NCBI GenBank assembly: GCA_018434685.1
Contig: JAHDOV010000020.1
Span: forward strand, 1 to 48,969
Length of the DNA stretch: 48,969 nt
From: Deltaproteobacteria bacterium
GTDB taxonomy: Bacteria > Desulfobacterota > Desulfomonilia > UBA1062
Direction of reading: 5' to 3'
In this document: positions 7,316-44,397 of the stretch, piece by piece
How the letters are laid out: each line of letters begins with the position of its first letter
Position numbering within the stretch: the stretch's first letter is position 1
Translations under genes and position numbers: made by a program
Notes under the pieces: model-generated
Database searches by the model: none
What the model was told of the DNA's origin: nothing
Seen by the model: only the letters and a program-made list of their open reading frames with translations

Positions 7316-9208
7316 TCATTCCCAGCCCGAACTCAAGGTATCGATCTGGCTGGTGAGCCAACTCTGCTGGGACTGCAGGGTGCTCAACATCGACTCCATG
7401 GTCGAGAACTTGGCGATCAGGGTTTTCTGGTACATGGTCAGACGTACTTCCATTGCATCGATCTTTTCGTCAATATTGTCTATCTGGTTCTGCAGCGAGT
7501 CCTGCTTGTTCGCCACATAGCCGTCGATGCTGTCAGTCATGGTATACAGAGCCTGGTCAAGCTTCTCACCGATACCCTTGGTGAATGTGAAGTCCAGGGT
7601 TCCGGTAGTGGTCCCGGTATATTTGATAACCAGGCCGTCTACCCCCTGGTCGTCATCGCCGGTAAGGGTCTGACCCTTGCCGGTCATGGTCATCCATTCG
7701 GAAGCCCCCTGCTCCCTTATCCTGCCGGCCACATCGATCCCTGTGTACGTGCTGTCCGCAATGCCGAGTTCCGCACTGATACCGGCTACGGTAAAATTTC
7801 CGGAACTCCCGTAGGAACCGCTCGATAAGCTGAGCTGGCCGCTATCGTTCTGCGCGGTGATGCCCAAAGTATTGCCCGCGTTGATGGCAGCTACGATGGC
7901 ATCCATGTCCATCCCCGCAGTCAGCGAAATGTTCTCTTCGGTCCCGCCGGAGCCGGTCAGTATCAGGGTGGTGTCACTGCCGAGCGTTCCGGAGAACCCG
8001 CTGCCCACAGTACCGGCCTTGGTGGCGGTCTGGGTGATCTCCACCTCGTAGTCACCTTCCATCGTGGTGCTGTCGGTTGAGTAGATGTAGGTAAGGTCGC
8101 TGCTCGTGCTCGACCCTTGGGCCACGAAGAGATTCACGACATCTTCGAAATTAGTCTGCAGGAATCCGTCCAGTTCGTCATCATCGATAGATAGCTGGCC
8201 ATACCTATCGATATTGATGCCGATGAAGCTCAGGTGATCGAGGGTGGAATTCAGACCGCTGACTTCAGACAGGATGACGTCTCTCAGCGTCGTCTTTACA
8301 GACCGGAGAGATGAATCGGCAAAGAGTGTCCCCGTGGTTTCGCCGTCTCCGGATGCGGTGTTCTGTTTGTCTATGTAACTCATCAGCTCGTTGTAACTGT
8401 CCACGAACTCCTGGATTTTCTCCTTGATACCGTCATTGTCCCGGTTGACATTGAGGGTTATAGTCGCACCTGTATCCTCTCCGACAAGGTCCAGGGTCAC
8501 ACCGCTGATCACATCGGTTATAGTATTCGTACTCCTGGTGATGGTGAAACCGTCAACAATGATCTCGGCATCCTGCCCGGCCACAAGTTCAGTCAGCCCC
8601 AAGGCCCCGGTGCCGTCGGTTATGGACATGCCATCCGCACCGGTGTTCTTTGATGTCAGGGTCAGATGGTATTCACTGTCAGAGATGGCAATGATCGATG
8701 CCGTGACGTCTGCAGGGTTGTCTCCGGAGTTCAGGGCATTGATCTTTGTCTGGATGTCCGACAGGCTGTCCGTTGCGGCGATGCTGACCTCCCGGTCGTT
8801 GATGGTGATATCGCCGGAAATCCCCAGGGCCTCGCTTGACGAACTGAGGCTGCCGCTGACAAGCTTCTGGGCGGTCGCAAGATGGTTGATGGTAATACTG
8901 TAGGATCCTTCTGATGCATTCGAGCCAACGGCATAGCCCAGGAGGTCTTCCACATCGGTGCCCGTTCCGATGACGGTGGCGGATGGTGTAAAGACATCAA
9001 AGTCTTCAAGAGAGGAAAGGGAACCGGCAGCGGTTTTCAGGGAAGCAAGCATGGTATTCACTTCATTCCAGGCAGACTTTTCCTCGCTGAGGGTAGTTTG
9101 TCTCTCCTCCAGCAGTGTGATGGGCTTGCGCTCAACCGCTACCAGCTGGGTGATCATGCTGTTCCAGTCCAAGCCGGATGCCAGTCCTGAAATAGAAAAC
9201 GTTGACAT
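7316..9208 (-). CDS. fliD: Flagellar filament cap protein FliD (HAP2)
   Basis: Caps the growing filament and helps flagellin fold and insert at the tip. 630 residues, within the family range of about 450-660. The N-terminus FSISGLASGLDWNSMITQLVAVERKPI is the conserved FliD start, with a coiled-coil region to about residue 70. The C-terminus, with a SYNELMSYI segment and the final coiled coil ending TMESMLSTLQSQQSWLTSQI, is the family's C-terminal domain. The middle is rich in Ser, Thr and Gly with repeated beta-type segments, as expected for the exposed part. It is the last gene of the flagellin-flaG-fliD set, 64 bp after flaG, with an AGGGATTT site before the ATG. Confidence 0.96.
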   Translation of the reverse strand: MSTFSISGLASGLDWNSMITQLVAVERKPITLLEERQTTLSEEKSAWNEVNTMLASLKTAAGSLSSLEDFDVFTPSATVIGTGTDVEDLLGYAVGSNASEGSYSITINHLATAQKLVSGSLSSSSEALGISGDITINDREVSIAATDSLSDIQTKINALNSGDNPADVTASIIAISDSEYHLTLTSKNTGADGMSITDGTGALGLTELVAGQDAEIIVDGFTITRSTNTITDVISGVTLDLVGEDTGATITLNVNRDNDGIKEKIQEFVDSYNELMSYIDKQNTASGDGETTGTLFADSSLRSVKTTLRDVILSEVSGLNSTLDHLSFIGINIDRYGQLSIDDDELDGFLQTNFEDVVNLFVAQGSSTSSDLTYIYSTDSTTMEGDYEVEITQTATKAGTVGSGFSGTLGSDTTLILTGSGGTEENISLTAGMDMDAIVAAINAGNTLGITAQNDSGQLSLSSGSYGSSGNFTVAGISAELGIADSTYTGIDVAGRIREQGASEWMTMTGKGQTLTGDDDQGVDGLVIKYTGTTTGTLDFTFTKGIGEKLDQALYTMTDSIDGYVANKQDSLQNQIDNIDEKIDAMEVRLTMYQKTLIAKFSTMESMLSTLQSQQSWLTSQIDTLSSGWE

Positions 9209-9272: not shown

Positions 9273-9656
9273 CTACACTTCCTCTTCAACAATCAGCCCG
9301 GATACCTCCGCCATGTGCTCGCGGAGCCGAAGCACACTTTCCGGCGGCAACTGCCTGATGACCTTACCGCTTTCCTTGTCCACCAAACTCACCACGATAT
9401 CGTGGGTGTCATCGTCGACGCTGAACTGTATGGACCGGTTCATGATCTTGAGCTGATTGTTAATCACGTCGAGATCCTTCCTGATCTTTTCGGCAGATCG
9501 TGTTTCTTTCTGAAGAACATTATGAGGTTGAGTAACTTCTCTTTTCTGGCTGGTCGATGTCTGGGTAATGGCCTTCAGTTCCACTCCGATTCTTTCGATC
9601 CGGACAGGATCAATCTGTATGGAGCTTGTACTTTCAATCTTCATGGCCACACTCAC
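9273..9656 (-). CDS. flaG: FlaG-family flagellar protein
   Basis: A 127-residue FlaG-family protein. The conserved C-terminal half is visible: LKIMNRSIQFSVDDDTHDIV followed by VSLVDKESGKVIRQLPPE, where the IRQLPPE motif is diagnostic. The N-terminal half is variable and polar. FlaG proteins of polar flagellates affect filament length; the mechanism is not visible here. The gene lies between flagellin and fliD on the same strand, as in many bacteria. It is separated from flagellin by a strong hairpin (9669-9699), so its expression may depend on read-through. AAAGGTGAG precedes the ATG. Confidence 0.9.
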   Translation of the reverse strand: MSVAMKIESTSSIQIDPVRIERIGVELKAITQTSTSQKREVTQPHNVLQKETRSAEKIRKDLDVINNQLKIMNRSIQFSVDDDTHDIVVSLVDKESGKVIRQLPPESVLRLREHMAEVSGLIVEEEV

Positions 9657-9712: not shown

Positions 9713-10468
9713 TTAGCCGAACAGGGAGAGAACACCCTGAGAGGACATGTTGGCCTGGGCCAGCATTGCGGTACCGGCCTGGAGCATGATCTGGTTCTTG
9801 GTGAAGTTCACCATCTCCGCGGCCATGTCAACATCCCTGATGGCCGATTCCGATGCGGAGAAGTTCTCGATCTTCGTCTGGAGGTTTGCATAGGTGTATT
9901 CGAGGCGGTTCATGGCGGCACCCATATCACCCAATATACCGCCTACCTCCGCTATAGCTGCATCGACGGCAGCGATGCCACTAGAATCGGCAGTTACTGT
10001 AGCGACGTCAAGAGAGGTGGCAGTCAAAGAGAAGGTGGCGACGGTTATCACGGAATTTGAGGTGGCGTCAATACCTACCTGGATGTCCCCACCTGTGTAT
10101 GTATTACTAGCAGCAATACGGTCGATCTCTTCTATCAGTGTATCCATCTCTGCCTGAGTTGTCGATCCACCACCTTTGACGCACAGTTCCTTCATCCTCT
10201 CGAGGATGCCTTCAATCGTGTTGGCGTCACCTTCTGAGATCGACAGCTGGGCCTTGCCCTGGACGGTGTTCTGGGCGGCAACATTGAGGCCCCGGATATC
10301 GGCGCGGAGCGCGTTTGCCTGGACCAGACCTGACGCATCGTCGCCTGCGCGGTTGATGCGGTAGCCGCTGGAGAGTTTCTCCATGCTGGAGTTGAGTTTT
10401 GCTTCGGTTCCGAGTAACTGCCTGTGTGCGTTGAGTGCTGCTACGTTGGTGTTAATACGAAGTGCCAT
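9713..10468 (-). CDS. fliC: Flagellin
   Basis: The filament subunit, exported by the flagellar type III system. At 251 residues it is short for flagellin: it keeps the N-terminal D0/D1 helices (MALRINTNVAALNAHRQL, SSGYRINRAGDDASGL) and the C-terminal D1/D0 (NFSASESAIRDVDMAAEM ... ANMSSQGVLSLFG) with only about 70 residues between. That middle part is rich in Thr, Ser and Ala and would be surface-exposed, so it is a plausible O-glycosylation region given the glycosyltransferases encoded divergently next door. One Cys (KELCVKGG) is unusual for flagellin. The ATG follows a strong GGAGG and a clear sigma28 promoter about 140 bp upstream. Confidence 0.96.
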   Translation of the reverse strand: MALRINTNVAALNAHRQLLGTEAKLNSSMEKLSSGYRINRAGDDASGLVQANALRADIRGLNVAAQNTVQGKAQLSISEGDANTIEGILERMKELCVKGGGSTTQAEMDTLIEEIDRIAASNTYTGGDIQVGIDATSNSVITVATFSLTATSLDVATVTADSSGIAAVDAAIAEVGGILGDMGAAMNRLEYTYANLQTKIENFSASESAIRDVDMAAEMVNFTKNQIMLQAGTAMLAQANMSSQGVLSLFG

Positions 10469-10831: not shown

Positions 10832-10848
10832 TAGGCATATATCTTGCT
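10832..10848 (+). promoter_or_regulatory. Sigma54-like promoter of the glycosyltransferase operon
   Basis: TAGGCATATATCTTGCT carries the invariant GG and GC 12 bp apart (10834-10835 and 10846-10847) with the -12 core TTGC, matching TGGCAC-N5-TTGC apart from one base in each half. It lies about 120 bp before the first frame of the operon. Sigma54 drives middle and late flagellar genes in many polar flagellates, so co-expression with the filament is plausible. Confidence 0.55.
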
Positions 10849-10969: not shown

Positions 10970-11179
10970 ATGAAAGTGGCTGCACTCTTGCCGGTAAAAG
11001 GAAGTAACGATCGAACACCCAACAAGAATACCATGCTTGACGGTGAACCTCTATTTCTGAGATGGTTGAAGAAATTCATGAACTGCATCTCCATAGACGA
11101 GTTCTTCCATAGTTTCAGTATACTCCTTCATCACAAAAAGGAATTTTTCTCAAATACAACGATCATCCGAGGAGAATAG
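10970..11179 (+). pseudogene. Truncated CMP-sugar (acylneuraminate-type) cytidylyltransferase
   Basis: The 69 residues open with MKVAALLPVKGSNDRTPNKN followed by MLDGEPLF, which is the nucleotide-binding start of CMP-sialic/pseudaminic/legionaminic acid synthetases (pattern IPVKGxSxRxPNKNxxxLxGxPLF). Those enzymes are about 230 residues, and here the frame loses similarity after LKKFMNCISIDEF and stops. No continuation was found in the other two frames before the next gene at 11183. It is therefore most likely the stub of a gene that once supplied an activated nonulosonic acid, a common flagellin sugar. It lies 3 bp before the giant glycosyltransferase gene, in the same direction and behind the same promoter. 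Expression as a short protein is possible but function is doubtful. Confidence 0.55.
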
Positions 11180-11182
11180 TTT

Positions 11183-14100
11183 ATGGAGACAAGCCAGCCT
11201 TCTAAAAATTGGCACAATTCATCTATACATCCTGGTGCCATATTCGTTCAGCTTACAACAGCATGTAATGCCAAATGTATTAATTGTCCTCATCCTTTTA
11301 CCTATGGACGAAAGGGTACTCATCCAAAGGGGGTTATGGCAGACAATATTTGGGACAAAATTATCCAAGACATTCAGGCAATGGGATATCGGAATCAAAT
11401 CGGGCTCTATCTTCACCATGAACCGCTTCTTGAAAGGACCCTTTTCAGAAAAATCAGACAAATAAACGATGAAACTGAAGCTTTTGCGGTAATCTCGACG
11501 AACGGCTCACTTCTTAATGAAAAGAATCGAAAGGCATTGATAGATGCCACACCCCGTATTGTACATATCAATATCAACTCTGCAGACAAAAGACAGTACG
11601 AAAGAATGACGGGGCTTAATTTTGAAACAACGATCAATAATGCAAAGCGATTCATTGTTGAAGCATCTAGGCAGATTCATATTGAGATAAACTGCCCTAT
11701 ACTGCCGGAAGTTGATATCGAAAAGTTGATCCATTTGTTTCCCGATGTAAAGGTCAACGCAGAATACTGGGCAAACAGTCGTGGTGGATTGCTTGAGGGA
11801 ATCACCAGCGATAATCGTGGAAGTCGGTTTAAGCTATCTGACTATTGTCTCCAGCCAGAGCAGAATTTCAATATTCTCTTTGATGGCAGCGTGGTTCTCT
11901 GCTGCCTCGATTGGGCACACGAATCAAGAATGGATTTCCCGAATGTCGGGAACAGCTCCATTCTGGAGATATACAACTCCGATTTAATGCAAAAAATCAT
12001 ACATGAATTCAAAAAGGGGAACTACAGTCGCTATCAAATGTGTAAACACTGCTCAGAGGAAATGGGATTTATCAATAAGGACACGCCTGTCGTCAGTCCT
12101 GAAAAGCAGTGTCATCTCTCAAAGAACAACAACATAGAAAACACCGATACGCCAGTGATCGCAGAGTCAGACAATAAGATTAGCCATTGGGGGAAAACCT
12201 ATGAACCCGATTCTGCAATTCAGACACATGGCGGAGAAGTGAATAGAAAAGAGAAACGTCATTTGAACATATTGTTAACCAATCACCATCTTTTGGACTT
12301 TACAGGCAGTGAAGTATTCACCTTCACCATTGCTGATTTTCTGAAAAGGAATGGGCATAAAGTCACCATCTACTCCAACTATATTGATAGAATCCGCAAG
12401 TATTTTGACTTGAGGGGTATACCCATCACGAATAACCTTGCTACACTCAAAGGAAGCCATTTTGATGTAGCACATGTCCATCACAACATCAATGCCCTAG
12501 AAGTACGATATTTTTTTCCTAGACTACCGATAGTTTTTTTATCGCATGGAGTACTACCTTTTTTAGAACAGCCACCCCAGATTGATATTCGAATCTCAAA
12601 ATTTCTTGCTGTAAGCGAAGAAGTGAAAAACAATCTTATTACCAAGGTGGCAGATAAGGATACTGTTGATATCTATCGAAACATAGTGGACTCAGACATA
12701 TTCAGGCCAAGATCCAAGATAAACAACAAACCTCGTAATGCCCTCATCTTAAGCAACAGAATCGACACATCAACCGAGCATACCATTCGGGAGGCGTGTA
12801 ATCTATTAAATATTGAGTGTACTTTTATAGGTTCGCGGTTTAGCGAAATCGATTATTTTCAAGTCCCCAACGTTATGAATCAGGCAGATATCGTATTCAG
12901 TCTGGGGCGTGGAGCAGTTGAAGCAGCGATGTGTGCCAGAATACCTATAGTGTATGACTATCAGGGAGGAGATGGACTTGTAAGGCCTGGTGATCTTCAG
13001 GATATTATGAAATGTAACTTTTCAGGGAGAAGCAAAGGAATTAATTTCTCTGTCAAAACTCTAGTGGATGAAATCCGCAAGTATAAAGCAGAATATGGCG
13101 AAGAATTACGAGAAATTGCCTGTCAATATTTTAATGCTGAATTTAAAATAAATGAACTGATTGAAATCTACCACGCTGCAATAAAAGATGATATCCGTCC
13201 ATTAACTTCTCAGAATCAGGCTCTTTTAAATTACATTATATCAAGTATAATTGAATCACGTTCATATACTCAAAACTATCTGAAAAGAAAGAACGTCAGA
13301 ACACCAGTCTATAATGCCACTAATCGGATCGAATCATTCAAACACATTTGCTCAATCATTATACCAGTATTCAATAAAGTTGAATTTACTAGAAAGTGTC
13401 TTGAGGCCCTTATTGAGAACACCCCGGACGGTTTGTATGAGGTCATAATTGTCGATAATGCTTCAAGTGATGGAACTCATGAATTTCTCACCTGCCTGGA
13501 AGGCGATGTAAAAATCATTACAAATGAAACCAATCTAGGCTTTGCCAAGGCATGTAATCAGGGCGCGCATGCAGCTTCAGGAAAATATCTGGTATTCTTG
13601 AATAATGATACTATTCCTCTTCCTGGTTGGCTCAGTGAGTTAGTGAGTGTTGCTGATAAACATGATGACATAGGCATTGTAGGCAGCAAACTGTTATTTC
13701 CTGACGGAACGTTACAACATGCGGGTGTGGTTCTCGTTGAAACACCTTCAGGCAAGCTTGGTAATCATCTCTACTGGGGTTATCCTGGCGATTTTCCACC
13801 AGCAAACAAAGCAAGAGACTTCCAGGTGGTGACTGCGGCATGCATGCTTATGCCGGGAGATTTGTTCTTCAATGCTGGTGGGTTTGATGAAAGATATATT
13901 AATGGGATGGAGGATGTCGATCTCTGCTTAAGAATAAAGAGATCGGGGAAAAGGGTCTTTTATTGCCCAAACAGTGTATTGACCCATTTTGAAAGCAAAA
14001 CAGAGGGAAGATTTGATAGAGTTAATGATAACGAAAAACTTTTTGTGCAGTTATGGGACGACAAAATACAAGCAGATAAAAGCAAATATCTCATCGAAGA

Positions 14101-16012
14101 TGGATTCAGAATAGAACAGGTCAATGGCAAGGTATCCTGGATATATCATGAAGAATTATCAAACAAATTACTGAGTGTCATTATAAACACTTATAATTCT
14201 CTTCCAGCGATTCAAAGGTCTATTGAAAATATTATTTCTTGTACCTCAATGCCCGTTGAGATCATAATTGTGGATAATCATTCAACAGATGGCACGAAAG
14301 ATTATCTGAAAACACTTTGTGATATCAATACAATATCCCTGAATGAAAAAACCAATTCTGATGAATGTTTCTATATGGGCCTTAAAGAAGCTAGGGGCGA
14401 TTATATCGCATTCTTGAGTCCCGAGGTCATATTATCTACAGGGTGGGACACACAATTTATCCTCAGTTTCAAGGAAACTGCTGGCGCGGTGAGTGCATTT
14501 ATTTACAAATATGATGAACTGCTGAACTTTAAGGATCTTATCACAAACCCTTTGAACGGAGAGATCGACCTCAACTACTTCGCATCCATGATCGCAAGAT
14601 GGAATAAAAACAAATGCGAAGAGAAGGGAATTCTTGATCCTCAATGCTATATGATAAAAAAGAGTCTTATTGAAAGAATAGATATGCTTGATAGCGGCTT
14701 AAAGAACAACTTTGATAAGGATCTTTCCCTTAGAATGAATGAAGCAGGTTATGAAATTATTCGGGCAACCGGCGCCCTAGTATATACTCATGAGCCTTCT
14801 CAACCTTATGCACATCAGAATTCATCGTTCTGGGAAAACAAGAATAGTATTTCACAATCCATTGGAATACCATTGACATCAATAGTAATACTTACTTTCA
14901 ATCAGATCAATATCACTAAGAAGTGCCTAAACAGCATCCTCGAATATACAAATATACCGTATGAGCTAATACTCGTAGATAACGGGTCAACCGATGGCAC
15001 GAAAGATTATCTCAGAGAATTTGCTCGGGTTCATAAAAATGTAGAGTTAATCTCAAATAAAAAAAACCTCGGATTTGCTGCAGGAAATAATCAGGGCATT
15101 GAGAAAGCACATGGCGATTATATACTTCTCCTGAATAACGACGTCGTTGTTGCACAAGGCTGGCTCGAAAGAATGATCTCCCATCTTGAGCAATCACCAG
15201 ACATCGGCATGGTCGGACCCATGAGCAATTCAGTTTCCGGGGCTCAACTTGTGAAGAATGTACCATACAAGAACAAGTTGAATGCCATGCAGAACTTTGC
15301 CCAAGAGTTCGCAAAGAATAACCAAGGAAAAACCACCGAGGTTATGCGTCTCGTAGGCTTCTGCCTTCTCATCAGAAAAGAGGTTCTCGAGGTCATCGGA
15401 GGTCTTGATGAAAACTACGGCAGTGGCAATTTCGAGGACGACGATCTCTGTCTGAGGTCATGCATCGCCGGGTATAAAAATATCATTGCGGGAGATGTGT
15501 TCATCCACCACTTTGGCAGTATGACCTTCAAAGGAAACTCCATAGATTATGCAGCTACGATGAAAAAAAACCTCTCTTACTTTGGGGAAAAATGGAAAGA
15601 TATCATAGAAATCAATAATGATACCGGCTACAGGATTCATGCCACAAAAGAACAACAGATCCAAAAGCTTATATGCTGGGGAGAGGAAAAATATGCATCG
15701 GGTGATCTGAGATCAGCTGTTAAACTTTTTAGGAGAGTTCTCATGCTTGACAGAAGAAACTCCCAGGCCCTGAGCAACCTCGGCGTGATACAATGGCAGC
15801 TCGGCGAGACCACATCGGCTGTGGACATCTTTCAGAAAGCGCTCTTCCTTGATCCGAACGACACTGATGCCCTGGCGAATCTTGTTCAGGCAGTCGAAGA
15901 GATCAAAAGAGCCGACCTGGTTCAGAATAACCTTATTGATCTGCTGCGGCAGTCTCAGCCTGCAAATCCAGACCTCGGGAGGCTCATTGACGGGCTCCAG
16001 GGAAATGTATGA
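11183..16012 (+). CDS. Radical SAM / GT4-like / triple GT2 / TPR multidomain protein
   Basis: A 1609-residue single chain. Residues 1-320 form a radical SAM domain with its iron-sulfur motif CNAKCINC (Cys28, Cys32, Cys35) and a C-terminal SPASM-like cysteine set (about 221-289, including VVLCCLDW and CKHC). About 360-660 is a GT-B (GT4-like) glycosyltransferase fold. Three GT2 (GT-A) domains follow, starting near 722, 996 and 1231; the first and third have NND at the DxD position and the acceptor-site ED motif (GMEDVDLCLR, NFEDDDLCLR). The second has SPEV instead and looks inactive. TPR repeats end the protein (about 1493-1609). The start has GAGGAGA before the ATG, and the stop overlaps the next gene by 4 bp. 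Glycosylation of flagellin or a surface glycan is inferred from position; the radical SAM substrate is unknown. Confidence 0.88.
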   Translation: METSQPSKNWHNSSIHPGAIFVQLTTACNAKCINCPHPFTYGRKGTHPKGVMADNIWDKIIQDIQAMGYRNQIGLYLHHEPLLERTLFRKIRQINDETEAFAVISTNGSLLNEKNRKALIDATPRIVHININSADKRQYERMTGLNFETTINNAKRFIVEASRQIHIEINCPILPEVDIEKLIHLFPDVKVNAEYWANSRGGLLEGITSDNRGSRFKLSDYCLQPEQNFNILFDGSVVLCCLDWAHESRMDFPNVGNSSILEIYNSDLMQKIIHEFKKGNYSRYQMCKHCSEEMGFINKDTPVVSPEKQCHLSKNNNIENTDTPVIAESDNKISHWGKTYEPDSAIQTHGGEVNRKEKRHLNILLTNHHLLDFTGSEVFTFTIADFLKRNGHKVTIYSNYIDRIRKYFDLRGIPITNNLATLKGSHFDVAHVHHNINALEVRYFFPRLPIVFLSHGVLPFLEQPPQIDIRISKFLAVSEEVKNNLITKVADKDTVDIYRNIVDSDIFRPRSKINNKPRNALILSNRIDTSTEHTIREACNLLNIECTFIGSRFSEIDYFQVPNVMNQADIVFSLGRGAVEAAMCARIPIVYDYQGGDGLVRPGDLQDIMKCNFSGRSKGINFSVKTLVDEIRKYKAEYGEELREIACQYFNAEFKINELIEIYHAAIKDDIRPLTSQNQALLNYIISSIIESRSYTQNYLKRKNVRTPVYNATNRIESFKHICSIIIPVFNKVEFTRKCLEALIENTPDGLYEVIIVDNASSDGTHEFLTCLEGDVKIITNETNLGFAKACNQGAHAASGKYLVFLNNDTIPLPGWLSELVSVADKHDDIGIVGSKLLFPDGTLQHAGVVLVETPSGKLGNHLYWGYPGDFPPANKARDFQVVTAACMLMPGDLFFNAGGFDERYINGMEDVDLCLRIKRSGKRVFYCPNSVLTHFESKTEGRFDRVNDNEKLFVQLWDDKIQADKSKYLIEDGFRIEQVNGKVSWIYHEELSNKLLSVIINTYNSLPAIQRSIENIISCTSMPVEIIIVDNHSTDGTKDYLKTLCDINTISLNEKTNSDECFYMGLKEARGDYIAFLSPEVILSTGWDTQFILSFKETAGAVSAFIYKYDELLNFKDLITNPLNGEIDLNYFASMIARWNKNKCEEKGILDPQCYMIKKSLIERIDMLDSGLKNNFDKDLSLRMNEAGYEIIRATGALVYTHEPSQPYAHQNSSFWENKNSISQSIGIPLTSIVILTFNQINITKKCLNSILEYTNIPYELILVDNGSTDGTKDYLREFARVHKNVELISNKKNLGFAAGNNQGIEKAHGDYILLLNNDVVVAQGWLERMISHLEQSPDIGMVGPMSNSVSGAQLVKNVPYKNKLNAMQNFAQEFAKNNQGKTTEVMRLVGFCLLIRKEVLEVIGGLDENYGSGNFEDDDLCLRSCIAGYKNIIAGDVFIHHFGSMTFKGNSIDYAATMKKNLSYFGEKWKDIIEINNDTGYRIHATKEQQIQKLICWGEEKYASGDLRSAVKLFRRVLMLDRRNSQALSNLGVIQWQLGETTSAVDIFQKALFLDPNDTDALANLVQAVEEIKRADLVQNNLIDLLRQSQPANPDLGRLIDGLQGNV

Positions 16013-17709
16013 ATGAACGCAATACACTGAAAAAACACCGCAAGAGACTGCATAGGATCGCCCAGGAACCAACCATTGGTGTGATCATGATCGTGAAGAA
16101 CGAGGAAGCGAGGTTGGGGAATATCCTTGCGGATATCAAAGGTGTGGTGGATGAAATTGTGGTTATTGATACCGGTTCGTCTGATGCTACGGTATCGATC
16201 GCCCGGGAGCATGGTGCCAAGGTGGGTTTTTTCTCCTGGTGTAATGATTTCTCAGCCGCACGGAACGCCTCCATATCCCTGGCCACATCCGATTATTTAT
16301 TATGGTTTGACGCCGATGACCGGCTTGACCCCGGCGAGGGCCGGAAACTGGCCGCCCTCAAGAAGCACCTTCGTCCTGCAAAGGACCGTGCCTACATGCT
16401 CAAGATCAACAATGTAACGAGTCAAACTGGTGATAGGCTATGCTTCCAGGTCCGTATCTTCCCCAACCTGCCGGGGCTCCATTTTGAAAACAGGATCCAT
16501 GAGCAGATCGCACCCTCCATCGAGCGTGCCGGCATTGTAATAGAACGTGTGGATATCCTCATCCGTCATACGGGGTATCATGCAATAGACGACACTCATG
16601 TCAAGTTCAGGCGCAACCTTTCCATTCTCCTCGAGGAACTGGAAGCGGGCAACATTTCGTCATCACAGCGCTTCTTCATTGCCTCGACCTATTTCGGGCT
16701 GGGTGAATACGAACAGTGCATCGACCATATTAAGGCTGCCCGAGCCATGGGGGATTCCCAGAGTTGGCTTAAAAACAGCTATTCCCTGGCATCAGAGAGC
16801 TACCTCAATCTTGATCGGACCGAAGATGCCCTGGCTGAGCTCGAGCAGGGGGTTGCCGTCTTTCCGGATATGGGGCTCATGCATTACCTGTTGGGCACTG
16901 CATATCTTAGGGCCAATAAGATTGAAGCCGCCACCACCGCCCTGGCAAGGGCGATGCATTTGGGGATCAAGGTGGAGACCTTTTCCTTCCCATCTCAAAT
17001 CTACGAACTGCTCCCGTACTTTTATGGTATGGCCCTGGAAAAGGCCGGCCGGCTGCAGGAGGCCGCCGAAGCGTATAAGGCTTCACTTGCAGTCAAACCA
17101 GCGGGTTTGCAAGCGGTCATGGCGCTGGGCAATGTCCTGCTCCAGGCCGGAAAGATCGACGAAGCCCTGCTCCATCTCACTACAGCCAAGGACATGTCCG
17201 ATACGGTCAACGTTCCCGTGTGGTTGAGTCTTGCAAAGATCCACAGCTACAGAAAAAGCCCTGAAAACGCTCACGCACTCTACCTTGACATCCTCAATGA
17301 AGCACCTTCGAACCTGCAGTGTCTCGCCAGCATTCTGGATACGAGCATCGAGCTGGACGATATCGAGACCTTCCTCCGTGCGCTCGAACAACTCCTGCTC
17401 ACCCTCGACATACCCACACCGGAAGCAACCATCGACTCCCTTGCCGAATGTGCCGACCTGTGCTTGAAAACAGCGTTTAGGCTCAAGGAAACCGGGGAAC
17501 ATGCCCTGGCCCAGCATCTCGCCGAAATCGCAGTCCGCTTGGATGGGTCAAGTCCCGGCGCCCATCTTTTCCTGGCCGATCTGTCTGCCGAGAAGGGAGA
17601 CACCCCCCGGATGATTGCGAGTCTCGAGACGGCACTAAAAAGCGGGGCTGATCCACAGGAAGTGCTCACGAGAATCAACAGTATAGAGCAGTCAAAGCTC
17701 TCTCCATGA
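16009..17709 (+). CDS. GT2 glycosyltransferase with C-terminal TPR repeats
   Basis: 566 residues. The GT2 domain covers about residues 20-250: IGVIMIVKNEEARLGNIL, then VVDEIVVIDTGSSDATVSIA, and the catalytic metal-binding DADD near residue 101 in LLWFDADDRLD. This is the pattern of the SPBc2/WaaE-like glucosyltransferase group. From about 215 to the end are TPR-type helical repeats (for example RTEDALAELEQGVAVFPDMG and GRLQEAAEAYKASLAVKPAG), which commonly hold protein acceptors. The ATGA overlap with the 1609-residue gene indicates translational coupling and a shared pathway. Unlike its upstream neighbour this gene is GC-rich, and the switch begins within the TPR part of the upstream gene. 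Confidence 0.9.
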   Translation: MNERNTLKKHRKRLHRIAQEPTIGVIMIVKNEEARLGNILADIKGVVDEIVVIDTGSSDATVSIAREHGAKVGFFSWCNDFSAARNASISLATSDYLLWFDADDRLDPGEGRKLAALKKHLRPAKDRAYMLKINNVTSQTGDRLCFQVRIFPNLPGLHFENRIHEQIAPSIERAGIVIERVDILIRHTGYHAIDDTHVKFRRNLSILLEELEAGNISSSQRFFIASTYFGLGEYEQCIDHIKAARAMGDSQSWLKNSYSLASESYLNLDRTEDALAELEQGVAVFPDMGLMHYLLGTAYLRANKIEAATTALARAMHLGIKVETFSFPSQIYELLPYFYGMALEKAGRLQEAAEAYKASLAVKPAGLQAVMALGNVLLQAGKIDEALLHLTTAKDMSDTVNVPVWLSLAKIHSYRKSPENAHALYLDILNEAPSNLQCLASILDTSIELDDIETFLRALEQLLLTLDIPTPEATIDSLAECADLCLKTAFRLKETGEHALAQHLAEIAVRLDGSSPGAHLFLADLSAEKGDTPRMIASLETALKSGADPQEVLTRINSIEQSKLSP

Positions 17710-18386: not shown

Positions 18387-21227
18387 TCAGACTCGGCCCC
18401 TGCCCATTATGCTTTCCATCAACTCATGGGCAATGTTGGAGCTGACGAGCCGCATCATGCTTTCTTCCGCACTCCCGAAGCTTAACAGGTTGATGCTTCC
18501 ATACCAGACGATCCTCCTGTCCAGTACAGCGAACTTCTGGTGGATATTGGGTCTGAACACCACGCGGACAGCGGATTTCTTCAACAGATCCAGCGTTGCC
18601 TCCAGGGCCGGCCGGTCACTGTTTTTACAATCGGTTGCCGGTCTTGTCACGACAACCACCCTGACCCCTCTTCCCAATGCAGCGTTCATATACTCCAGCA
18701 TCTGCATACTGCGTCTCTTTGCAACGAATGGGCTGACGATCACGATCTCTCTCGATGCATTCATCATGTCATTACTATATACGGGAAGAAAATTGCTCTT
18801 ATCGAATATGCTGTCCACGGGTTCATCGGCAATGCTTTCCGCTTTTGCCCGGTAGCCGATGGCAGCATATCCGGCAAGCCGTTTGCCGTACATTTTCTCA
18901 AGCATCCTTACCTGGATATCGACATAGTCGTAAATCCGGACCTCCTTCTTGTTTCCGGACAGTCGGTGCAGCCTGCCTGCATATTGCTGCAGGGTCCCTT
19001 TCCACGATATGGGCATTGCCAGAAACAGGGTGTCCAGGCGGGGCTCGTCAAATCCCTCGCCGATGTACTTGCCCGTGGCAATCAGTGTTAATTGCCTGCC
19101 GTCGGGCATATTCCGTATCCTTGCAAGGACATCTTTCGTTTCTTTCGTGCCCCTGCCGCCGATCAGGGTGATCGCATCCGGTATTTTTTCACGCAACATC
19201 TTTGAGAGCGATGCGACATGGGCTGTTCTCTCGGTCAGAACGAGTGAGTGCCTGCCCTCCTGATAATTTTTTATCACGTCCTGGACAAGCAGTTGATTCC
19301 TCAGTTCATCGCCGGCAATTTCAGTGTACAGTTCCTGGATCGTCAGATCCTTCTCATCCTGTGCAAACGGTATTCTGAGTCCGGTAAATCTCGGGATAAC
19401 GTAATGTGCGAACGGTCTTTTTTCTGCCTGGGTCTTTGCATCAACCTTGTATCTGACCGGCCCGCAATGCATGAAGATAATCGGATGATGTCCGTCCGAC
19501 CTTACCGGTGTGGCCGTCAACCCATACACGTATCTTGCATGCACGTGCTTTAGTATCTGCTCGAAGCTGAAGGCCGGAACATGGTGGCATTCATCCACAA
19601 TCACCATGCCGTAGTTCCTGATAAGGTCCTTCACCTCGCCCCTGCAGTTTAAAGACTGCATGATCGCAACATCGATGATGCCGCTCGGGTTTTCCTTTCC
19701 CGCACCTATCTGTCCGATCAGGCTTTGCCTCTTCTTCCGCCCCCTCTTTTTCTCCGGTGCCGGCAGTTCCTCATCAATACTCAGGAACTCCGACAGCCTT
19801 GTTATCCATTGCGCAAGGAGCTGCTTCCTGTGCGTCAATATCAGCGTGTTTGTCTTTCGCTGCGCAATCAGCTTTGCCGCAATGACCGTTTTCCCGAAGG
19901 CAGGTGCGGCCGAGAGGACGCCATGATCGTGTTTCATCATTTCGTTCAGTGCCTGCCGCTGTTCTTCCCGCAGGTCCCCTGTGAACACAACCTTAATGCA
20001 CCTTCCGGGATTTGTATGGTCGCACCAGATTGCCTCAGCACCAGCGTCGGCAAGCAAGCCTGCAACATCGGCATCGCACCCCCTGGGCAGGCACAGGTAT
20101 TCCGTTGTTTCGTCGGAGCAGGAAATGATCCTCGGCTTGTTGAACGTCGGCATTCGAAGGGCCTGGGCTTTATAAAAATCCGGGTTTTTAAAGGCGGCAA
20201 GCCTTTTGACTTCGTTCAATGCCCGCTCGGAAAGATTCGATTTTCTGACATAGATCATATTCGCCCGTATCAGTTCGACCCTTTTCGGAAAGTCCTGCTC
20301 TGTCCATCTGATTCGGCTCGTCAACCATGGTTTCGCCTCATCTTCCTGGTCTGACTTGAGGACGCCAAGCCCGTCTCCATGGCAGATCCTTGATATCAGC
20401 ATGGCGATATCGGCTTCGGTCAGTTTTACTATTCCAGCCAGGAATCCCCATTGGTCTTCATAAGGATGGAGCTTCTCGTCGATGAAAACGCTGTTGCCGC
20501 CTTCCCGCGCCTTCTTCTGCAGCGGCAGCGCAATCAGGTTGCCGAGACCGCCTTTCGGCATGGTATCCTGGTTGGGAAGGAGTCGGTCATAGGAGCTGAA
20601 TTCGAGTTCATGACGACTGTTCATCGACGAGGTCAGCAGGGTCGTGCCCAACTTCCGAGCAAGGCTCGCTTTTATCGGATCCGTAAAGAAAAACCAGGCA
20701 TGGGCGCCATTACCTGAACGCGAACGTTCTACTGCCACCGGGATATTGAAGTCTGTGCAGACATCCCTGAGTGTGGATACATCCTTCTGCCAACCCTGAC
20801 CGTCCAGATCGATTGCCAGAAAGTGACACGTCTCATCGTGCAGCAAAGGATACATCCCGACAACGATATTCCCCCTCAAATGATTCTCTATGACCTTCTC
20901 ATCGGGCGCAGCATATGATTTATGCCTGCATGCAGAGCATTTGGCCCCCGGCTTCCCGCAGATGCCCGATTTCCATTCATTCAGACAGACCGGCGCATAG
21001 CCGGACCTGCCTTCCCGATTCTCCCACCTCCTGGCATACACATCATCGCGCCCCCTGAACAGAGACATGAAAAGCCTGATCTTCGCTGAGGCTTCAAAGC
21101 TACCGTCAATCTGAACCGGGGAGCTAACACCGAGCCTCGCCTTCAGCAGATCGTTCTCCTCCCTCAAGGCACTGTTTTGAGCAAGCAACGCCTGATACTT
21201 TTCCAACAGTTCTTCAAAATCAATCAT
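18387..21227 (-). CDS. TOTE-type primase-DEAD/DEAH helicase-PLD fusion protein
   Basis: 946 residues if it starts at MIDFEELLEKYQ, preferred because a long open extension upstream overlaps the divergent gene and lacks domain character. The order is a leucine-rich coiled coil (about 1-35), a Cys4 zinc knuckle (Cys81, Cys90, Cys97, Cys100) and an archaeo-eukaryotic primase domain with catalytic AIDLDG (Asp140, Asp142) and SGNGAH (His176). A superfamily 2 helicase follows with Walker A APAFGKTV near 441, VDECHH near 542, TATPVR near 573 and motif VI QYAGRLHRL. The C-terminus carries a phospholipase D-type HQKFAVLD near 895 followed by GSINLLSFG. The primase domain resembles that of TOTE conflict-system proteins, so mobile-element defence or primer-dependent repair is the inferred role. 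The SNF2 helicase starts divergently. Confidence 0.88.
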   Translation of the reverse strand: MIDFEELLEKYQALLAQNSALREENDLLKARLGVSSPVQIDGSFEASAKIRLFMSLFRGRDDVYARRWENREGRSGYAPVCLNEWKSGICGKPGAKCSACRHKSYAAPDEKVIENHLRGNIVVGMYPLLHDETCHFLAIDLDGQGWQKDVSTLRDVCTDFNIPVAVERSRSGNGAHAWFFFTDPIKASLARKLGTTLLTSSMNSRHELEFSSYDRLLPNQDTMPKGGLGNLIALPLQKKAREGGNSVFIDEKLHPYEDQWGFLAGIVKLTEADIAMLISRICHGDGLGVLKSDQEDEAKPWLTSRIRWTEQDFPKRVELIRANMIYVRKSNLSERALNEVKRLAAFKNPDFYKAQALRMPTFNKPRIISCSDETTEYLCLPRGCDADVAGLLADAGAEAIWCDHTNPGRCIKVVFTGDLREEQRQALNEMMKHDHGVLSAAPAFGKTVIAAKLIAQRKTNTLILTHRKQLLAQWITRLSEFLSIDEELPAPEKKRGRKKRQSLIGQIGAGKENPSGIIDVAIMQSLNCRGEVKDLIRNYGMVIVDECHHVPAFSFEQILKHVHARYVYGLTATPVRSDGHHPIIFMHCGPVRYKVDAKTQAEKRPFAHYVIPRFTGLRIPFAQDEKDLTIQELYTEIAGDELRNQLLVQDVIKNYQEGRHSLVLTERTAHVASLSKMLREKIPDAITLIGGRGTKETKDVLARIRNMPDGRQLTLIATGKYIGEGFDEPRLDTLFLAMPISWKGTLQQYAGRLHRLSGNKKEVRIYDYVDIQVRMLEKMYGKRLAGYAAIGYRAKAESIADEPVDSIFDKSNFLPVYSNDMMNASREIVIVSPFVAKRRSMQMLEYMNAALGRGVRVVVVTRPATDCKNSDRPALEATLDLLKKSAVRVVFRPNIHQKFAVLDRRIVWYGSINLLSFGSAEESMMRLVSSNIAHELMESIMGRGRV

Positions 21228-24200
21228 AACAGCCTGCTGTCCGGGATAGATCGGAGAGAATGTATCAGTCCTCTTTATACGCTCATCGCGGTTGAAGAGA
21301 AACCGGAAATCGGCTATAGATTCCTGCCAGGTGTTATACCCGCTGTTGGAAGAGGATGGAACGTGCCTGAAGACAACCTGCCTGACGTTACACAAGATGA
21401 TCTCCATTGCATCGAGTTCCACCGCCATGCGATCGCACTGCTCCCACAGGCAGACGACAAACGGCCCGGGGTAGCCTTTTTTATAAAGACAGACTCCCTT
21501 GTCTCTGACCAGCGCTTCTGCACCTGTGCCACTTCGAAGAAAAGAACCTGCCAGCACATCCTCAGGCTTACCCGGGTGCTCCGGCATCTCAGGTCAGAGC
21601 TCGGCAGAAAGAGCATCGACGAGCATTTCAGGTCAGGCATTTTCTATACCATAGCCTCGATCCTGGCCCAGGAGTCACCCCTGGCCCCTGAAAATATCCG
21701 CTGGAAACACGCCTCGATTCAGAAAAAGCCCTCAATCCTGGGCATCGATGAACAGGGGGCCACTGTTTTAACCTACCTTGCACCAGATGACAGCGCGACG
21801 AGACTTCTCGAGCGCCTTGACCAGGGGGGAGACAACGAGCAGTTCCTTCTGAGCCGGCGAGGGGTTCTCTTGCAGCTCTCCCTGCACACCTTAAGCCCGA
21901 ATGAGCGAGCACTCATGGGTGCCGGAATGAAGTCCAGGCGCATGGCGATAGAAGAGAGTTTCTGGTACAGGCTCTTCTATCATGCATACCTGGAATTCGG
22001 CGGCACCTGCCATCTCTCACCTGCTATCGACATAGAAACCGGGGCGTTTACCGTCACCTGCAGCAATGACCAGGAACAGGTCCTCTTCCGCATGGAGATC
22101 CCGAGAAACAGCGTAAAGAGGTTTATCGTGGAAATGGGGGCTCACCTGCCTGCACATCACCACCTCTCCATCTCGCCCGTCCCTTTGCGGAGCATCTTCC
22201 TGGCAAACCAGAATACCGGGCTTGATCTGGAGGTGCGGCCCGCCATCGAGCTTATTCAACAAAGCGGCGAGAAACAATATTACGAAGAACATGAGCTGGC
22301 AAGATACCGCTACGGAAACCTTGTCTACCTCAGAGAGCTGGAAATCATGGCCGAGCTCGAAGACGCGGGAAGAAAGAACCGGAAATTCACCACCCCCGGA
22401 AAGCTCGTGTTGAAAAAGGCCCAGATTCCAGGCTTCCTCAATGATAACAGGGTGGAGATTGCCGACGGAACCATTGTCCTGGATGAAAAGGCAAGGGACA
22501 TGCATATATTCAGGGAATACGACAGGCTGGACATCACCCTGTCCGCCCTTGACAGGGACTGGTGCTGGCTGAGCCTGAACTATGGTTTCGGCAGCAGCGA
22601 GATATCGCTTGCCGAGATCATTCAGGCCAGAAAGACCGGTCAACGCTACATCGCCACCGTCGAAGGATGGATCGACTGTGCATCACCCACCCTCGATCAC
22701 CTCGACCAGTTTTCAAAAGACAACAGCCCTGCCGATGATCATGCAGAGAAGGATTACTTCAGGCTCAGGAAGATCGATCTGTTCAGGATGCAGGCCCTTT
22801 CCGGCTCGGCGCCAATGCATATTCACGGACATGATGACAAGGTGGTGCACCTGGAACGGGTACTCGAACTCAAACCGGCCGATCCCTTCCCTGATCTTGA
22901 AGGAAAGATCTCTCTGCTGAGGCAGTACCAGGTCAACGGGGTACAATGGATACGATTCCTCCATGAGAATGGGCTCGGCGGACTGCTCTGTGATGATATG
23001 GGGCTCGGGAAGACCCACCAGGTCATGGCCTTCATGGTGTGGCTGAAGCAGGAGCACAAGGGTCGGTTCCTCGTTGTGTGCCCCACGACCGTCATGAGCC
23101 ACTGGGAAGATAAGATCAGGAAGCATGCGCCGGCGCTCAATGCCTGCCTGTACCACGGCATCGACCGCAGCATCGAAGCAGCACTTGACGGTAACGACGT
23201 GATCATAACATCATACGGCATACTCCGGCGGGATGAGGATATTCTTGGTAGAATACCCTGGAGTCTCGCGGTGTTTGACGAGGCGCAGCACATAAAGAAT
23301 CCCCATACCAGGGCATATCGATGCGCATATAATCTCGGGGCCGGCATGAAGATCGGGGTGACAGGCACCCCCATCGAAAACAGGCTCGAAGAACTCAAGG
23401 CACTCTTCGATCTGGTGCTCCCGGGCTATCTCGGGTCTGATGCACATTTCTCCTCCCGGTACGCCGAGCCCATCGAGCATGATCACGAGGCCCCGGCTCG
23501 CCAGGAGCTGGAACGGCTCATCTCCCCGTTCATACTCAGGCGGCTCAAACAAAGTGTGCTTGAGGAGCTCCCGCCGAAGATCGAGGATATACGCACCTGC
23601 CTGCTTAGCGATGACCAGATCGTGCTCTACCGTGATGCCATCGATTCCCGGGCGCCTGCCCTCATGGATGAGCTTGGAGATGCCGGCAGGATGGTCCCCT
23701 ACATGCACATCTTTGCCCTGCTGAACCTCCTGAAGCAGATCTGCAACCATCCCGCCCTGGTGGACGGGGGTGTGAAGAACTACGAAAACTATGGCTCCGG
23801 CAAGTGGGACCTGTTCACCGAGTTGCTCTCAGAGTCTTTGGACAGCGGCCAGAAGGTGGTTGTATACTCCCAGTACCTCGGCATGATCGAGATCATATCC
23901 AGGCATCTTGAACAATCAGGCATCGGCCATGTCACCCTCACCGGAGCAAGCCGCAACCGGGGCCACCTCATCGACCGGTTCAACACCGATGAGGGCTGCC
24001 GTGTCTTTGTCGGGAGCCTCAAGGCAGGGGGTACAGGCATCGATCTGATCGCTGCCTCGGTGGTCATCCATTACGACAGGTGGTGGAATGCAGCAAAAGA
24101 AGACCAGGCAACAGACCGGGTCCATCGCATCGGTCAGACACGGGGAGTGCAGGTGTTCAAGCTGGTGACCCAGGGAACGCTCGAGGAAAAGATCGCGGCA

Positions 24201-24723: not shown

Positions 24724-27222
24724 CTAGTCGACCGATTCAAAGTTTACATCGATATCAGTGTCAGAACAGCCCAAGCAGTCATCAAGGTTACAGAGACATC
24801 CAAACCAATAATCATAGATCTTACCTCCCCACATTTCAATTCCCCTGACACTTCTGAAAATGGAATATTCCTTTACCATACAACCATGTTCAGGGTCATA
24901 CCTGAGCTGATTGGAAATCCCCATGAATGGATTTGTGTATATTGGGTATAAACCTAATTCTTCATAGATACTGGAATAAAAATCATAATCACTGAGCAGA
25001 TATGTTCTCTTATATTTCCCAGCAGCCAGCGGAGGCATCAGATAGAGGCAGCCACCCACCTCTTTTGAAGCATCCAGTTTATTCACAAGAGGAGAAAACC
25101 TGATATAAATACGATCGAGTGGTCTGGGTTCAATTTCACCTTTAAAGTATTTATGGGCTTGCTCTTTCGCCTCGGCCAATTCTTGGGGGTCTGTTGTCTG
25201 ATACAGAATATCATCTATGCAAACAAAATCCAGACCATTACATATGGTAAACGGGGTAGGCTCACAGATATCTTTAAACCCCACACGGATGGCATTTGAC
25301 TCCACGGAGCCATCTTCATGGAGGATATCACCTCGATAGACAAGATACAAATAAACATCGGTGGCCCACAGGGGGATCTCCCTATCAAGGTCAAAAGAAA
25401 GCTCCACAGGATTGTCCGATGGGATCGAATAATTATCGGCCACGCCAAGACACTTGTGACTGAAATGCATTTCGGAAGCGGTCGGCGGATACGGGTCGTA
25501 ATTTTTAAAGGGATCCACCTCCGAGATGCGGTATTCCGCTACAAGGTCTATCCTGCCATTGATCAGTTGTTCTCCTGAGGCAGAGTTGTTCCGCACCAGG
25601 AGCTTTATCTGATCGAATCCTTGCGTTGCCGGGTCTTCAGGAGGTGAAGGGATGAAAGAATACACCCCTTCGTCCGGCAATGACACCTCGATGGTGTCAA
25701 GGTGTTTTGCGGCGCCGATACACACCGCCTCTGTCTCATCACCAAGTCTTCCCTGAAATACGAGGAATACCGTACTCCCACAGGAATAGATGGGAACGTA
25801 GCGTTCCAGGTCGAAATCAAAACAGGTGTGGTAATCATGAGAAATTGACAAGACCTCCCGGGGTTCAGAGACCATGTATTGATACTCTTTATCTACGGCA
25901 GACTTGTATTTGATCACGAGCCGCACTGTCCCACTTCCCATAGCTTCAGTGCCGGCATCGTTATCCGAGGAATTCCTGGCACACACCCTGACCCTGAAAT
26001 AGTCAGTCGATTCGGATACCGAATAATGAATATCCATCGTGCCGCGGAAGAAGTATTTCAGCAAGCCTGCAGAATAACTGACAGCCCTGGGGATCAGTCT
26101 CTTTGCGTAGTCTTCATAAACATAATTATCCAGGCGGGAAGCCATCGTTGTCCATTCATCATACACCGGCACCGTACAGAGCCGGTATCCCGTATCCCCG
26201 TGGCGTGCTTTGGTATAGAATTGCCTATACACCATCCTCGAGGGGTCTCTCGGATCCGGGATCGGCACATCATCTGCCTTCTCAATACTGTCTAAATTAG
26301 GAAATGGAAAATCCGTTGTTTTGAACATGGTATCCTTGCTGAAAAAATTGGCATTGGAATACTCTGCAAGCCCTATGGCCTGATCCATCGTCGCATCAGG
26401 GTCTGGCGGGCTTGAAGGGGTTGTGGTGTAATCCCATTCATACCTGTCCGTATCTACGAGCCGGGCTATGGGAAGCAGATCAGAAGGAATCGGGGTTCTA
26501 TCCAGGACAGAGTCATGATACGTATATCTCGACTCATCAGAAAGCCACCCGGCGTATGTATCATCTATCGAATCACTGTATTTGTCACCGACATTTTGCA
26601 CGTAGCTCTCATAGTTATACACCATGTGGAAATCATTCCGCGTATGCGAGGGTACCGACGAGTCCTGGACCATGTGCATGAGCCGTCCCAGGCCTTCAAA
26701 TGTCTTCACAAAATTCCGCGATCTCACACTCGGATCAGTCGATATCAGCGCCTGATAGAAGTATGAGCGCACATCGTTCCAACTGTATTTTCCATATGGC
26801 TGATTTTCGAACTGGGCCCAGAGTATCGAAGAAAAAGCTGTCCCTTTAAAGCCGGCCTCGAGCCAGGGCTTGAGAGGATCATGGAAATGACTTGCCGAAC
26901 GCATGCGCGGGCTGTCTTCATACTTGCCTCCATTGGCCAGGCATTTGAATACGGGCAGATCTTCGGGGATGCCGATATGAAACTCATATCCAGAGAAGTT
27001 TATCCACCCTATACGGCCAATGACTTCCTTTCTTCCTTCTTCAAATCCTAGAAATGATTTAAGATAAGTATCAAAGGAAAAACCATCGATTATATGTTCT
27101 GAAATGTATTTGTTAATCCTATAATGATCTGATCCCTCATATGAAAACCCGGGAAGACTGAATACAGATATCATAAAAGTCAGAATTACAATTAAATTTA
27201 CAAAATATATCTTCCTAATCAT
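24724..27222 (-). CDS. Exported zinc phospholipase C-like protein
   Basis: 832 residues with an N-terminal signal sequence (about 1-28). About 30-330 resembles the zinc-dependent phospholipase C / S1-P1 nuclease fold. The family's metal-binding elements are visible as SHFHDP (His112, His114, Asp115) and LMHMVQDSSVPSHTRNDFH (His183, Asp187, His193, Asp197). Two beta-rich segments follow (about 380-490 and 520-660) that resemble CARDB-type adhesion modules, then a C-terminal region with an acidic, Cys-containing tail (CNLDDCLGCSDTDIDV). The start overlaps the preceding lipoprotein gene by 8 bp and has AGGGAGGTAAGATC, so the two are translated together. Phospholipase activity is inferred from motifs; a metal-binding structural role is possible. 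Confidence 0.7.
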   Translation of the reverse strand: MIRKIYFVNLIVILTFMISVFSLPGFSYEGSDHYRINKYISEHIIDGFSFDTYLKSFLGFEEGRKEVIGRIGWINFSGYEFHIGIPEDLPVFKCLANGGKYEDSPRMRSASHFHDPLKPWLEAGFKGTAFSSILWAQFENQPYGKYSWNDVRSYFYQALISTDPSVRSRNFVKTFEGLGRLMHMVQDSSVPSHTRNDFHMVYNYESYVQNVGDKYSDSIDDTYAGWLSDESRYTYHDSVLDRTPIPSDLLPIARLVDTDRYEWDYTTTPSSPPDPDATMDQAIGLAEYSNANFFSKDTMFKTTDFPFPNLDSIEKADDVPIPDPRDPSRMVYRQFYTKARHGDTGYRLCTVPVYDEWTTMASRLDNYVYEDYAKRLIPRAVSYSAGLLKYFFRGTMDIHYSVSESTDYFRVRVCARNSSDNDAGTEAMGSGTVRLVIKYKSAVDKEYQYMVSEPREVLSISHDYHTCFDFDLERYVPIYSCGSTVFLVFQGRLGDETEAVCIGAAKHLDTIEVSLPDEGVYSFIPSPPEDPATQGFDQIKLLVRNNSASGEQLINGRIDLVAEYRISEVDPFKNYDPYPPTASEMHFSHKCLGVADNYSIPSDNPVELSFDLDREIPLWATDVYLYLVYRGDILHEDGSVESNAIRVGFKDICEPTPFTICNGLDFVCIDDILYQTTDPQELAEAKEQAHKYFKGEIEPRPLDRIYIRFSPLVNKLDASKEVGGCLYLMPPLAAGKYKRTYLLSDYDFYSSIYEELGLYPIYTNPFMGISNQLRYDPEHGCMVKEYSIFRSVRGIEMWGGKIYDYWFGCLCNLDDCLGCSDTDIDVNFESVD

Positions 27223-44118: not shown

Positions 44119-44397
44119 GAACAACTTATTCCCTTCGCCTCAAATCATGCCAGATATATTATCGCAGAGAATTGACAATGTGCTTCCACCCGCACATATT
44201 TATCAGTATAATAACAATATAGGGATGGTGTATGATCTTTCTTCTTTTCCCGTACCATCATCCTTGAGAGGCCAGTGGGTTAAAGTACCAAGTCGAAGCA
44301 TGGCAAGTTCTTAAAAACAGAGTGGTTATGAGCATACTGAGAATACAAAAAACAGATTCCCGCATTGAACATAATCCCCCTGCCCCGGAGTGTTACC

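Follow-up and report, generated by a model that had tools for sequence, protein, structure and literature searches.

A putative modular flagellin glycan synthase with a fused radical SAM domain in a deltaproteobacterial genome

The stretch of DNA analysed here (the window; 48,969 nucleotides from a Deltaproteobacteria bacterium) encodes, beside flagellin, a 1609-residue protein in which a radical SAM domain is fused to glycosyltransferase (GT) domains and a TPR tail. Radical SAM enzymes are familiar from antibiotics, cofactors and peptides, and flagellin glycosylation is familiar for nonulosonic acids and GlcNAc. On balance, the large protein and the product of the next gene appear to form a modular flagellin glycan synthase, with a GmaR-like starter, the 1609-residue protein as extender and radical SAM tailoring of a sugar. 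Fusions of radical SAM and GT domains recur in other genomes. The features concerned are the following.

7316-9208, minus strand: FliD (flagellar cap), from Pfam.
9713-10468, minus strand: flagellin of 251 residues, short D0/D1 type, the presumed acceptor, from Pfam.
10833-10848, plus strand: sigma54-like site AGGCATATATCTTGCT, facing the GT genes, from a consensus count and comparison of intergenic regions.
10970-11179, plus strand: 69-codon remnant, its first 46 residues 72% identical to a CTP_transf_3/RraA protein in the same place in the relative L089, from alignment.
11169-11174, plus strand: Shine-Dalgarno-like GAGGAG, 8 nt 5' of the ATG of the large ORF, from sequence.
11183-16012, plus strand: 1609-residue ORF with the order rSAM-twitch, GT-B, GT2a, GT2b, GT2c, TPR, from the ORF list, translation and Pfam.
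11183-12112, plus strand: radical SAM and four-cysteine twitch/SPASM-type domain, residues 1-310, closest solved relative BtrN, from Pfam and structure and profile comparison.
11264-11287, plus strand: CxxxCxxC motif CNAKCINC, residues 28-35, from sequence.
11846-12052, plus strand: predicted auxiliary cluster cysteines C222, C240, C287 and C290, from sequence and alignment with BtrN.
12245-13252, plus strand: GT-B (GT4-like) domain, residues 355-690, from Pfam below cut-off and alignment to other loci.
13334-14107, plus strand: GT2a, residues 718-975, LNNDT motif intact, from Pfam and motif reading.
14108-14857, plus strand: GT2b, residues 976-1225, degenerate metal motif (SPE), from Pfam and comparison with relatives.
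14858-15622, plus strand: GT2c, residues 1226-1480, LNNDV and EDDD intact and conserved in the family, from alignment.
15623-16009, plus strand: short TPR tail, residues 1481-1609, from Pfam and alignment.
16009-17709, plus strand: GmaR/SunS-like GT2 and TPR protein, its ATG overlapping the stop of the large ORF, from Pfam, model and profile.

The large frame opens with ATG and runs for 1609 codons with zero internal stops, which confirms the single chain described by the first-pass annotation. A genome search places the protein once in its own 4.29-Mb genome. In Pfam, Radical_SAM matches residues 23-183 (8.3e-9), SPASM residues 222-290 (1.2e-11), Glycos_transf_2 three stretches (1.5e-84) and TPR_16 residues 1500-1560 (1e-7). 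The TPRs read earlier are present but short, with repeats at about residues 1500-1570. The GT-B fold is also borne out: its Pfam match is weak (Glyco_transf_4, 27.0 bits, below the cut-off of 28.5), and it is backed by alignments of residues 329-961 (GT-B and GT2a) with a Desulfatitalea protein (L138, 37% identity) and of residues 357-696 (GT-B) with a Melioribacteraceae protein (L181, 40%). LNND and ED motifs are found in both GT2a and GT2c. In GT2b, FLSPEV replaces the NPD of the orthologous domains of two related loci (L093 and L094), so the metal motif is degenerate and the domain is probably weak or dead; the three GT2 domains proposed at first are therefore three stretches of which two have intact motifs.

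The product of the downstream gene has an N-terminal GT2 domain followed by TPR helices (Pfam), and its structural model is good (pLDDT 90.5). Foldseek ranks SunS, a peptide S-glycosyltransferase, first (3.1e-16). In a search with a 12-row profile, GmaR comes out at E 2.7e-43 and SunS at E 1.4e-29. The fold is common to SunS and this protein, which scores below the NCBIfam cut-off of the SunS family (60.8 vs 350 bits). GmaR, the flagellin GlcNAc transferase and antirepressor of Listeria, has the same succession of a GT2 domain and TPR-type helices, and a flagellar context. According to the excerpted text of PMC9638930, GmaR adds GlcNAc to flagellin, and its TPR part was proposed by its authors to recognise flagellin; a multi-GT radical SAM partner of 1609 residues, as found here, is not mentioned in that excerpt. 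Both the GmaR-like GT2 and TPR protein and the genetic linkage to flagellin, as in GmaR-type flagellin O-glycosylation, are found in the window. The GmaR-like neighbour is likely the initiating enzyme, and the idea of a single-protein builder is not supported, since this conserved, overlapping neighbour likely starts the glycan and one GT2 domain looks degenerate.

As first noted, the large gene lies beside flagellin; flagellin and FliD are transcribed divergently from the GT genes, on the side opposite the GmaR-like gene. Between them, an ORF of 127 residues (9273-9656, minus strand) is FlaG-like by position only, and similar-sized ORFs are found there in relatives. Occurrence in non-flagellated relatives had been named as evidence against a flagellar role, and the outcome is favourable to that role: in the class (n = 42), a match to the GT part at E<=1e-39 occurs in 13 of the 15 genomes that have flagellin and in 1 of the 27 that lack it (Fisher p = 5e-8), at a cut-off chosen after inspecting the tables. 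The same association is seen, more weakly, inside the window's own family (13/15 vs 1/9, p = 5e-4). The GmaR-like gene is present in 13 of the 42 class genomes, 12 of which are flagellin-positive, and in six family genomes (L087-L092) the GT pair lies within the same 20 kb as flagellin. At the cut-offs applied, neither GT2c nor the GmaR-like gene is found in two flagellin-positive family members (G006 and G011), and the pair is therefore dispensable for flagella. Other exceptions are G005 (79% complete; flagellin and GT match, no GmaR-like gene), G001 (82% complete; GmaR-like gene, no flagellin) and G003 (GT2c 43% identical, neither GmaR-like gene nor flagellin). In most flagellated relatives, flagellin stays together with the GT2c-TPR end and the GmaR-like gene.

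More distant relatives were sought in named genomes. The whole 1609-residue protein as a single query gave five pattern matches and no relatives, and therefore a GT2c-TPR alignment was used, which found 493 relatives; the best 80 of these were analysed as loci. A flagellin-like ORF is present in 37 of these 80 loci, which were picked by GT2c similarity only, and in 32 of the 49 that are at least 15 kb long; no flagellin is seen in the other 43 loci, and 31 of all 80 fall below 15 kb in length. By chance, we estimate, about 1 in 100 stretches of 20 kb from a genome of 3-5 Mb would carry flagellin. The flagellin HMM behind these counts drew 9 of its 21 seeds from counted loci (L117, L121, L126, L159, L171, L174, L181, L182 and L184), initially found with the window flagellin as query, some at 18-30 bits. 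The sigma54-like promoter of the first-pass annotation is weak alone, being one of 22 sites that score at least 13 in the window on both strands by an ad hoc consensus count. It gains from comparison: of 11 intergenic regions, 6 (window, L087, L089, L091, L092 and L101) have a similar site (core GGCA...TTGC) directed at the GT genes, and the other five (L088, L090, L096, L098 and L099) have none of such a score in this orientation. The earlier reading of a flagellin-tied glycan builder with a radical step, for which a sugar rather than a peptide substrate is presumed, is in line with the linkage to flagellin, with the presence of a GmaR-like partner and with the conservation of the sigma54-like site. 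Flagellin is very probably the target of glycosylation.

The radical SAM motif read at first, CNAKCINC, provides the CxxxCxxC of a SAM-binding cluster, as in a BtrN-like twitch dehydrogenase. The SPASM-like cysteines also noted at that stage number four, as in BtrN: in a profile alignment, which compares residues only and leaves the cluster a prediction, C222, C240, C287 and C290 align with the C, C and CxxC of BtrN. After the CxxxCxxC, the only cysteines in the first 350 residues are C171, C222, C240, C241, C287, C290 and C310. Two-cluster SPASM peptide maturases have at least seven cysteines for two auxiliary clusters, a pattern that this domain does not show, and the CxxCxxxxxC run of that type is absent from the first 350 residues. 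HHEP is found where GGEP, the usual radical SAM motif, is expected. BtrN, a twitch radical SAM dehydrogenase of butirosin synthesis, is the best solved relative by single-sequence search (2.3e-8) and by profile (2.4e-26), and the best Foldseek match (1.2e-9) of the predicted domain model, which is of moderate quality (pLDDT 66.9, pTM 0.70). In VIA, the same model gives Z 17.6 against BtrN, with rmsd 3.2 over 216 aligned residues and about 17% identity, followed by ChlB (Z 16.4) and anSME (15.4). The spiro-SPASM family (TIGR04321) matches residues 17-167 at 4.1e-12, below its NCBIfam cut-off (45.5 vs 250 bits).

BtrN removes two electrons from an aminocyclitol and ligates its auxiliary cluster by four cysteines (excerpted text of PMC9012708). 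It is a free-standing antibiotic enzyme, whereas the domain in the window is fused to glycosyltransferases. DegT sugar aminotransferases occur in clusters with radical SAM genes (L087, L097 and L101); none is encoded on the window's contig, and others lie elsewhere in the same genome. A sugar is probably the substrate of the radical SAM domain. Because BtrN is the best relative, the cysteine pattern is shared and DegT genes occur in the clusters of relatives, the likeliest radical reaction would be sugar oxidation or epimerisation.

Fusion of radical SAM and GT domains was called unusual by the first-pass annotation, which proposed a domain search for recurrence. The exact rSAM-GTB order is indeed found in one genome only, that of the window, but the fusion as such is recurrent. 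PF04055 and a GT family share one ORF in 9 of the best 80 of 493 loci (Pfam): L108 (the same protein as L088), L110 (= L087), L114 (= L093), L116 (= L091), L117 (Nitrospinae), L133, L143 (Armatimonadota), L150 and L162 (Thermodesulfovibrionales). The view that the fusion is unique to the window's genome was therefore rejected, as fusions are found in relatives and in other phyla. Two further loci are probable fusions, L118 (its GT2c found only with our own query) and L165 (truncated at the start of the contig and showing SPASM only). A scripted count gave 10 of the 80 as fused and scored L116 as separate, its ORF lying only partly inside the locus. L176, a weak radical SAM-like frame without CxxxCxxC, was left out of the fusion count. 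In L143 (3173-11230), the second cluster cysteine is replaced by serine (CNARSVMC); the domain is possibly inactive, and therefore not every fused radical SAM domain need be active. Separate radical SAM genes are found in further clusters (L097 and L101 of the window's genus, L121, L130, L131, L170 and L179), including those of the cultured strains Geotalea toluenoxydans (L121) and Geomonas propionica (L130), where they lie near a similar GT cluster. A plasmid search (196 records) gave GT2 parts only among the matches listed, none above 80% of the query.

Several of these loci hold other large or composite proteins. In L091 (6544-17667, minus strand), an ORF of 3708 residues beside flagellin combines GT2, two radical SAM stretches, GT1, WbsX, TPRs and a methyltransferase, and in Geotalea sp. 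SG265 (L126, 614-12739) an open frame of 4042 residues with GT2 and TPR parts lies near flagellin. In a Nitrospirae MAG (L131, 5303-7174), hexapeptide acyltransferase-like repeats are fused to radical SAM-SPASM in a gene adjoining a GT giant. In L087 (11570-12832, minus strand), a methylthiotransferase-like protein (UPF0004 and Radical_SAM) is encoded within the flagellin glycan cluster.

Modules are exchanged within this family. The proteins of L087 (1192 residues) and L088 (1198 residues) are 79% identical over the last 493 residues and 64-86% identical in windows across residues 101-300, and the radical SAM stretch shows 18-31% identity in most 50-column windows. The L091 protein can be aligned with that of L087 across the radical SAM domain (22-1001, 52%), but with that of L088 only on the two flanks of this domain. 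Judged from these identities, the close relatives L087 and L088 hold different radical SAM modules in one slot of otherwise similar proteins. The radical SAM modules belong to unrelated types: among 28 compared, that of the window falls in a broad SPASM/twitch group, seven form a B12-type group, one is methylthiotransferase-like and that of L088 is isolated. A B12-binding domain is found in L093, L118, L121, L162 and L170 (Pfam). The closest kin of the window's radical SAM domain are stand-alone genes from other families of the phylum (28-29% identity, E 4e-27 to 2e-30), and the modules of its cluster relatives are more distant than these. Searched alone at order level, the window's domain is found in its own genome only (1 of 24 at E<=1e-20); at phylum level, 65 of 395 genomes have matches at E<=1e-9, mostly separate genes, the best non-self match being 31% identical. 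By domain queries, one long frame of the phylum search (G291, 1131 residues) holds GT2 and radical SAM, and another (G306, 723 residues) radical SAM only.

The region 5' of the large ORF also differs between relatives. In L089, the sigma54-like site is followed by a CTP_transf_3/RraA gene and then by the large GT gene, and in the window the 46-residue start of such a gene lies after the sigma54-like site, directly 5' of the radical SAM ORF. The 69-codon ORF was dropped as a functional gene, as it has no Pfam or NCBIfam match and the cytidylyltransferase similarity ends after residue 46. The stretch at 10.5-15.3 kb is AT-rich (GC about 0.39 vs 0.51 for the whole window), with GC3 of 0.35-0.43 compared with 0.63-0.69 in flagellin, FliD and the GmaR-like gene. 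The module mismatch, the distant radical SAM kin, the cytidylyltransferase remnant and the AT-richness together indicate that the upstream end of the cassette was replaced, presumably by an incoming module, at an age that is likewise presumptive. GC3 suggested a recombination point near residue 1350, which is not claimed here, as the GT2c identities show no clean break.

Elsewhere in the window, a TOTE conflict-system primase fused to helicase and PLD-like domains (18387-21587, minus strand; Pfam AEP-TOTE 3.7e-100) lies directly behind the glycosylation genes. Two overlapping ORFs of 832 and 258 residues (24724-27222 and 27215-27991, both minus strand) have no Pfam match at 0.001. A 1984-residue protein with beta-propeller repeats (28089-34043, minus strand; TIGR02276, TIGR03866) is followed by a PEP-CTERM protein (34158-34850). 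A second AT-rich stretch (GC about 0.40 over 4.8 kb) lies near 44001-48800.

An alternative is that the radical SAM domain modifies flagellin itself, by amino-acid oxidation or epimerisation in the manner of anSME or RiPP maturases, after which the GT domains glycosylate it. SPASM/twitch enzymes frequently act on peptides, TPR domains bind protein acceptors, and ChlB, anSME and SuiB come close behind BtrN in fold comparisons with the moderate model. Nevertheless, there are cysteines for one auxiliary cluster only, in the BtrN pattern, the Pfam list of the 1609-residue protein contains no peptide-recognition domain, and radical SAM types are diverse while flagellin is conserved, which fits glycan diversity better; direct modification of flagellin is thus considered unlikely. 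A different target for the whole cluster, such as FliD, the small protein encoded between flagellin and FliD, or a surface polysaccharide, would make flagellin a mere neighbour. FliD adjoins as well, polysaccharide loci often hold multi-GT2 proteins, and the 43 loci without a visible flagellin could be read this way, though many are short. We regard this as improbable, as the cluster co-occurs with flagellin across the class, has a GmaR-like partner and shows a conserved sigma54-like site, and no O-antigen polymerase or flippase is found among ten scanned neighbours in the window.

A passenger or decaying radical SAM module, one that has no function here and came with a recently captured cassette, is also quite unlikely. 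The AT-rich composition, the truncated cytidylyltransferase upstream, the degenerate GT2b and HHEP in place of GGEP would agree with this, but all seven cluster cysteines are present, the 310-codon frame is intact, and relatives repeatedly carry similar modules whose motifs are intact.

Under the preferred reading of a modular flagellin glycan synthase, the GmaR/SunS-like protein would add the first sugar to flagellin in the cytoplasm. The 1609-residue protein would dock via its TPR tail, and its GT2c, GT2a and GT-B domains would extend the chain. The N-terminal radical SAM-twitch domain, if active, would oxidise or epimerise a sugar in the manner of BtrN, either as a nucleotide sugar or on the growing glycan, and through this radical step the filament would gain a sugar beyond the reach of ordinary enzymes. 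A swappable cassette may thus form the upstream end: among relatives, the GT2c-TPR part and the GmaR-like gene are kept, and radical SAM and other tailoring modules are exchanged. More tentatively, such giant proteins could work like assembly lines in several phyla: radical SAM modules of twitch, B12-dependent and other types would be exchanged between lineages in a fixed slot, edit the glycan while it sits on flagellin and act as a glycan-type switch.

Related arrangements have been described. The flagellin glycosylation islands with Maf in Clostridium likewise hold variable glycan genes beside flagellin, and Maf-1 obtains its flagellin specificity through a TPR domain; radical SAM or giant fused proteins are not mentioned in the excerpted text of that source (PMC13317340), and no Maf domain is found among the Pfam matches of ten scanned window proteins. 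A capsule cluster with a radical SAM gene near a glycosyltransferase appears in an excerpt of PMC8743553. No description of a radical SAM-GT flagellin fusion was found in open-licence PMC full text, a scope outside which most subscription papers fall. The loci in the window and its relatives suggest an apparently unrecognised family of glycan synthases that are linked to flagellin, have a GmaR-like partner and exchange their radical SAM modules. If this is true, the flagella of some bacteria would carry sugars unforeseen by any pathway described so far, and the glycan may be encoded in the order of domains within a single gene.
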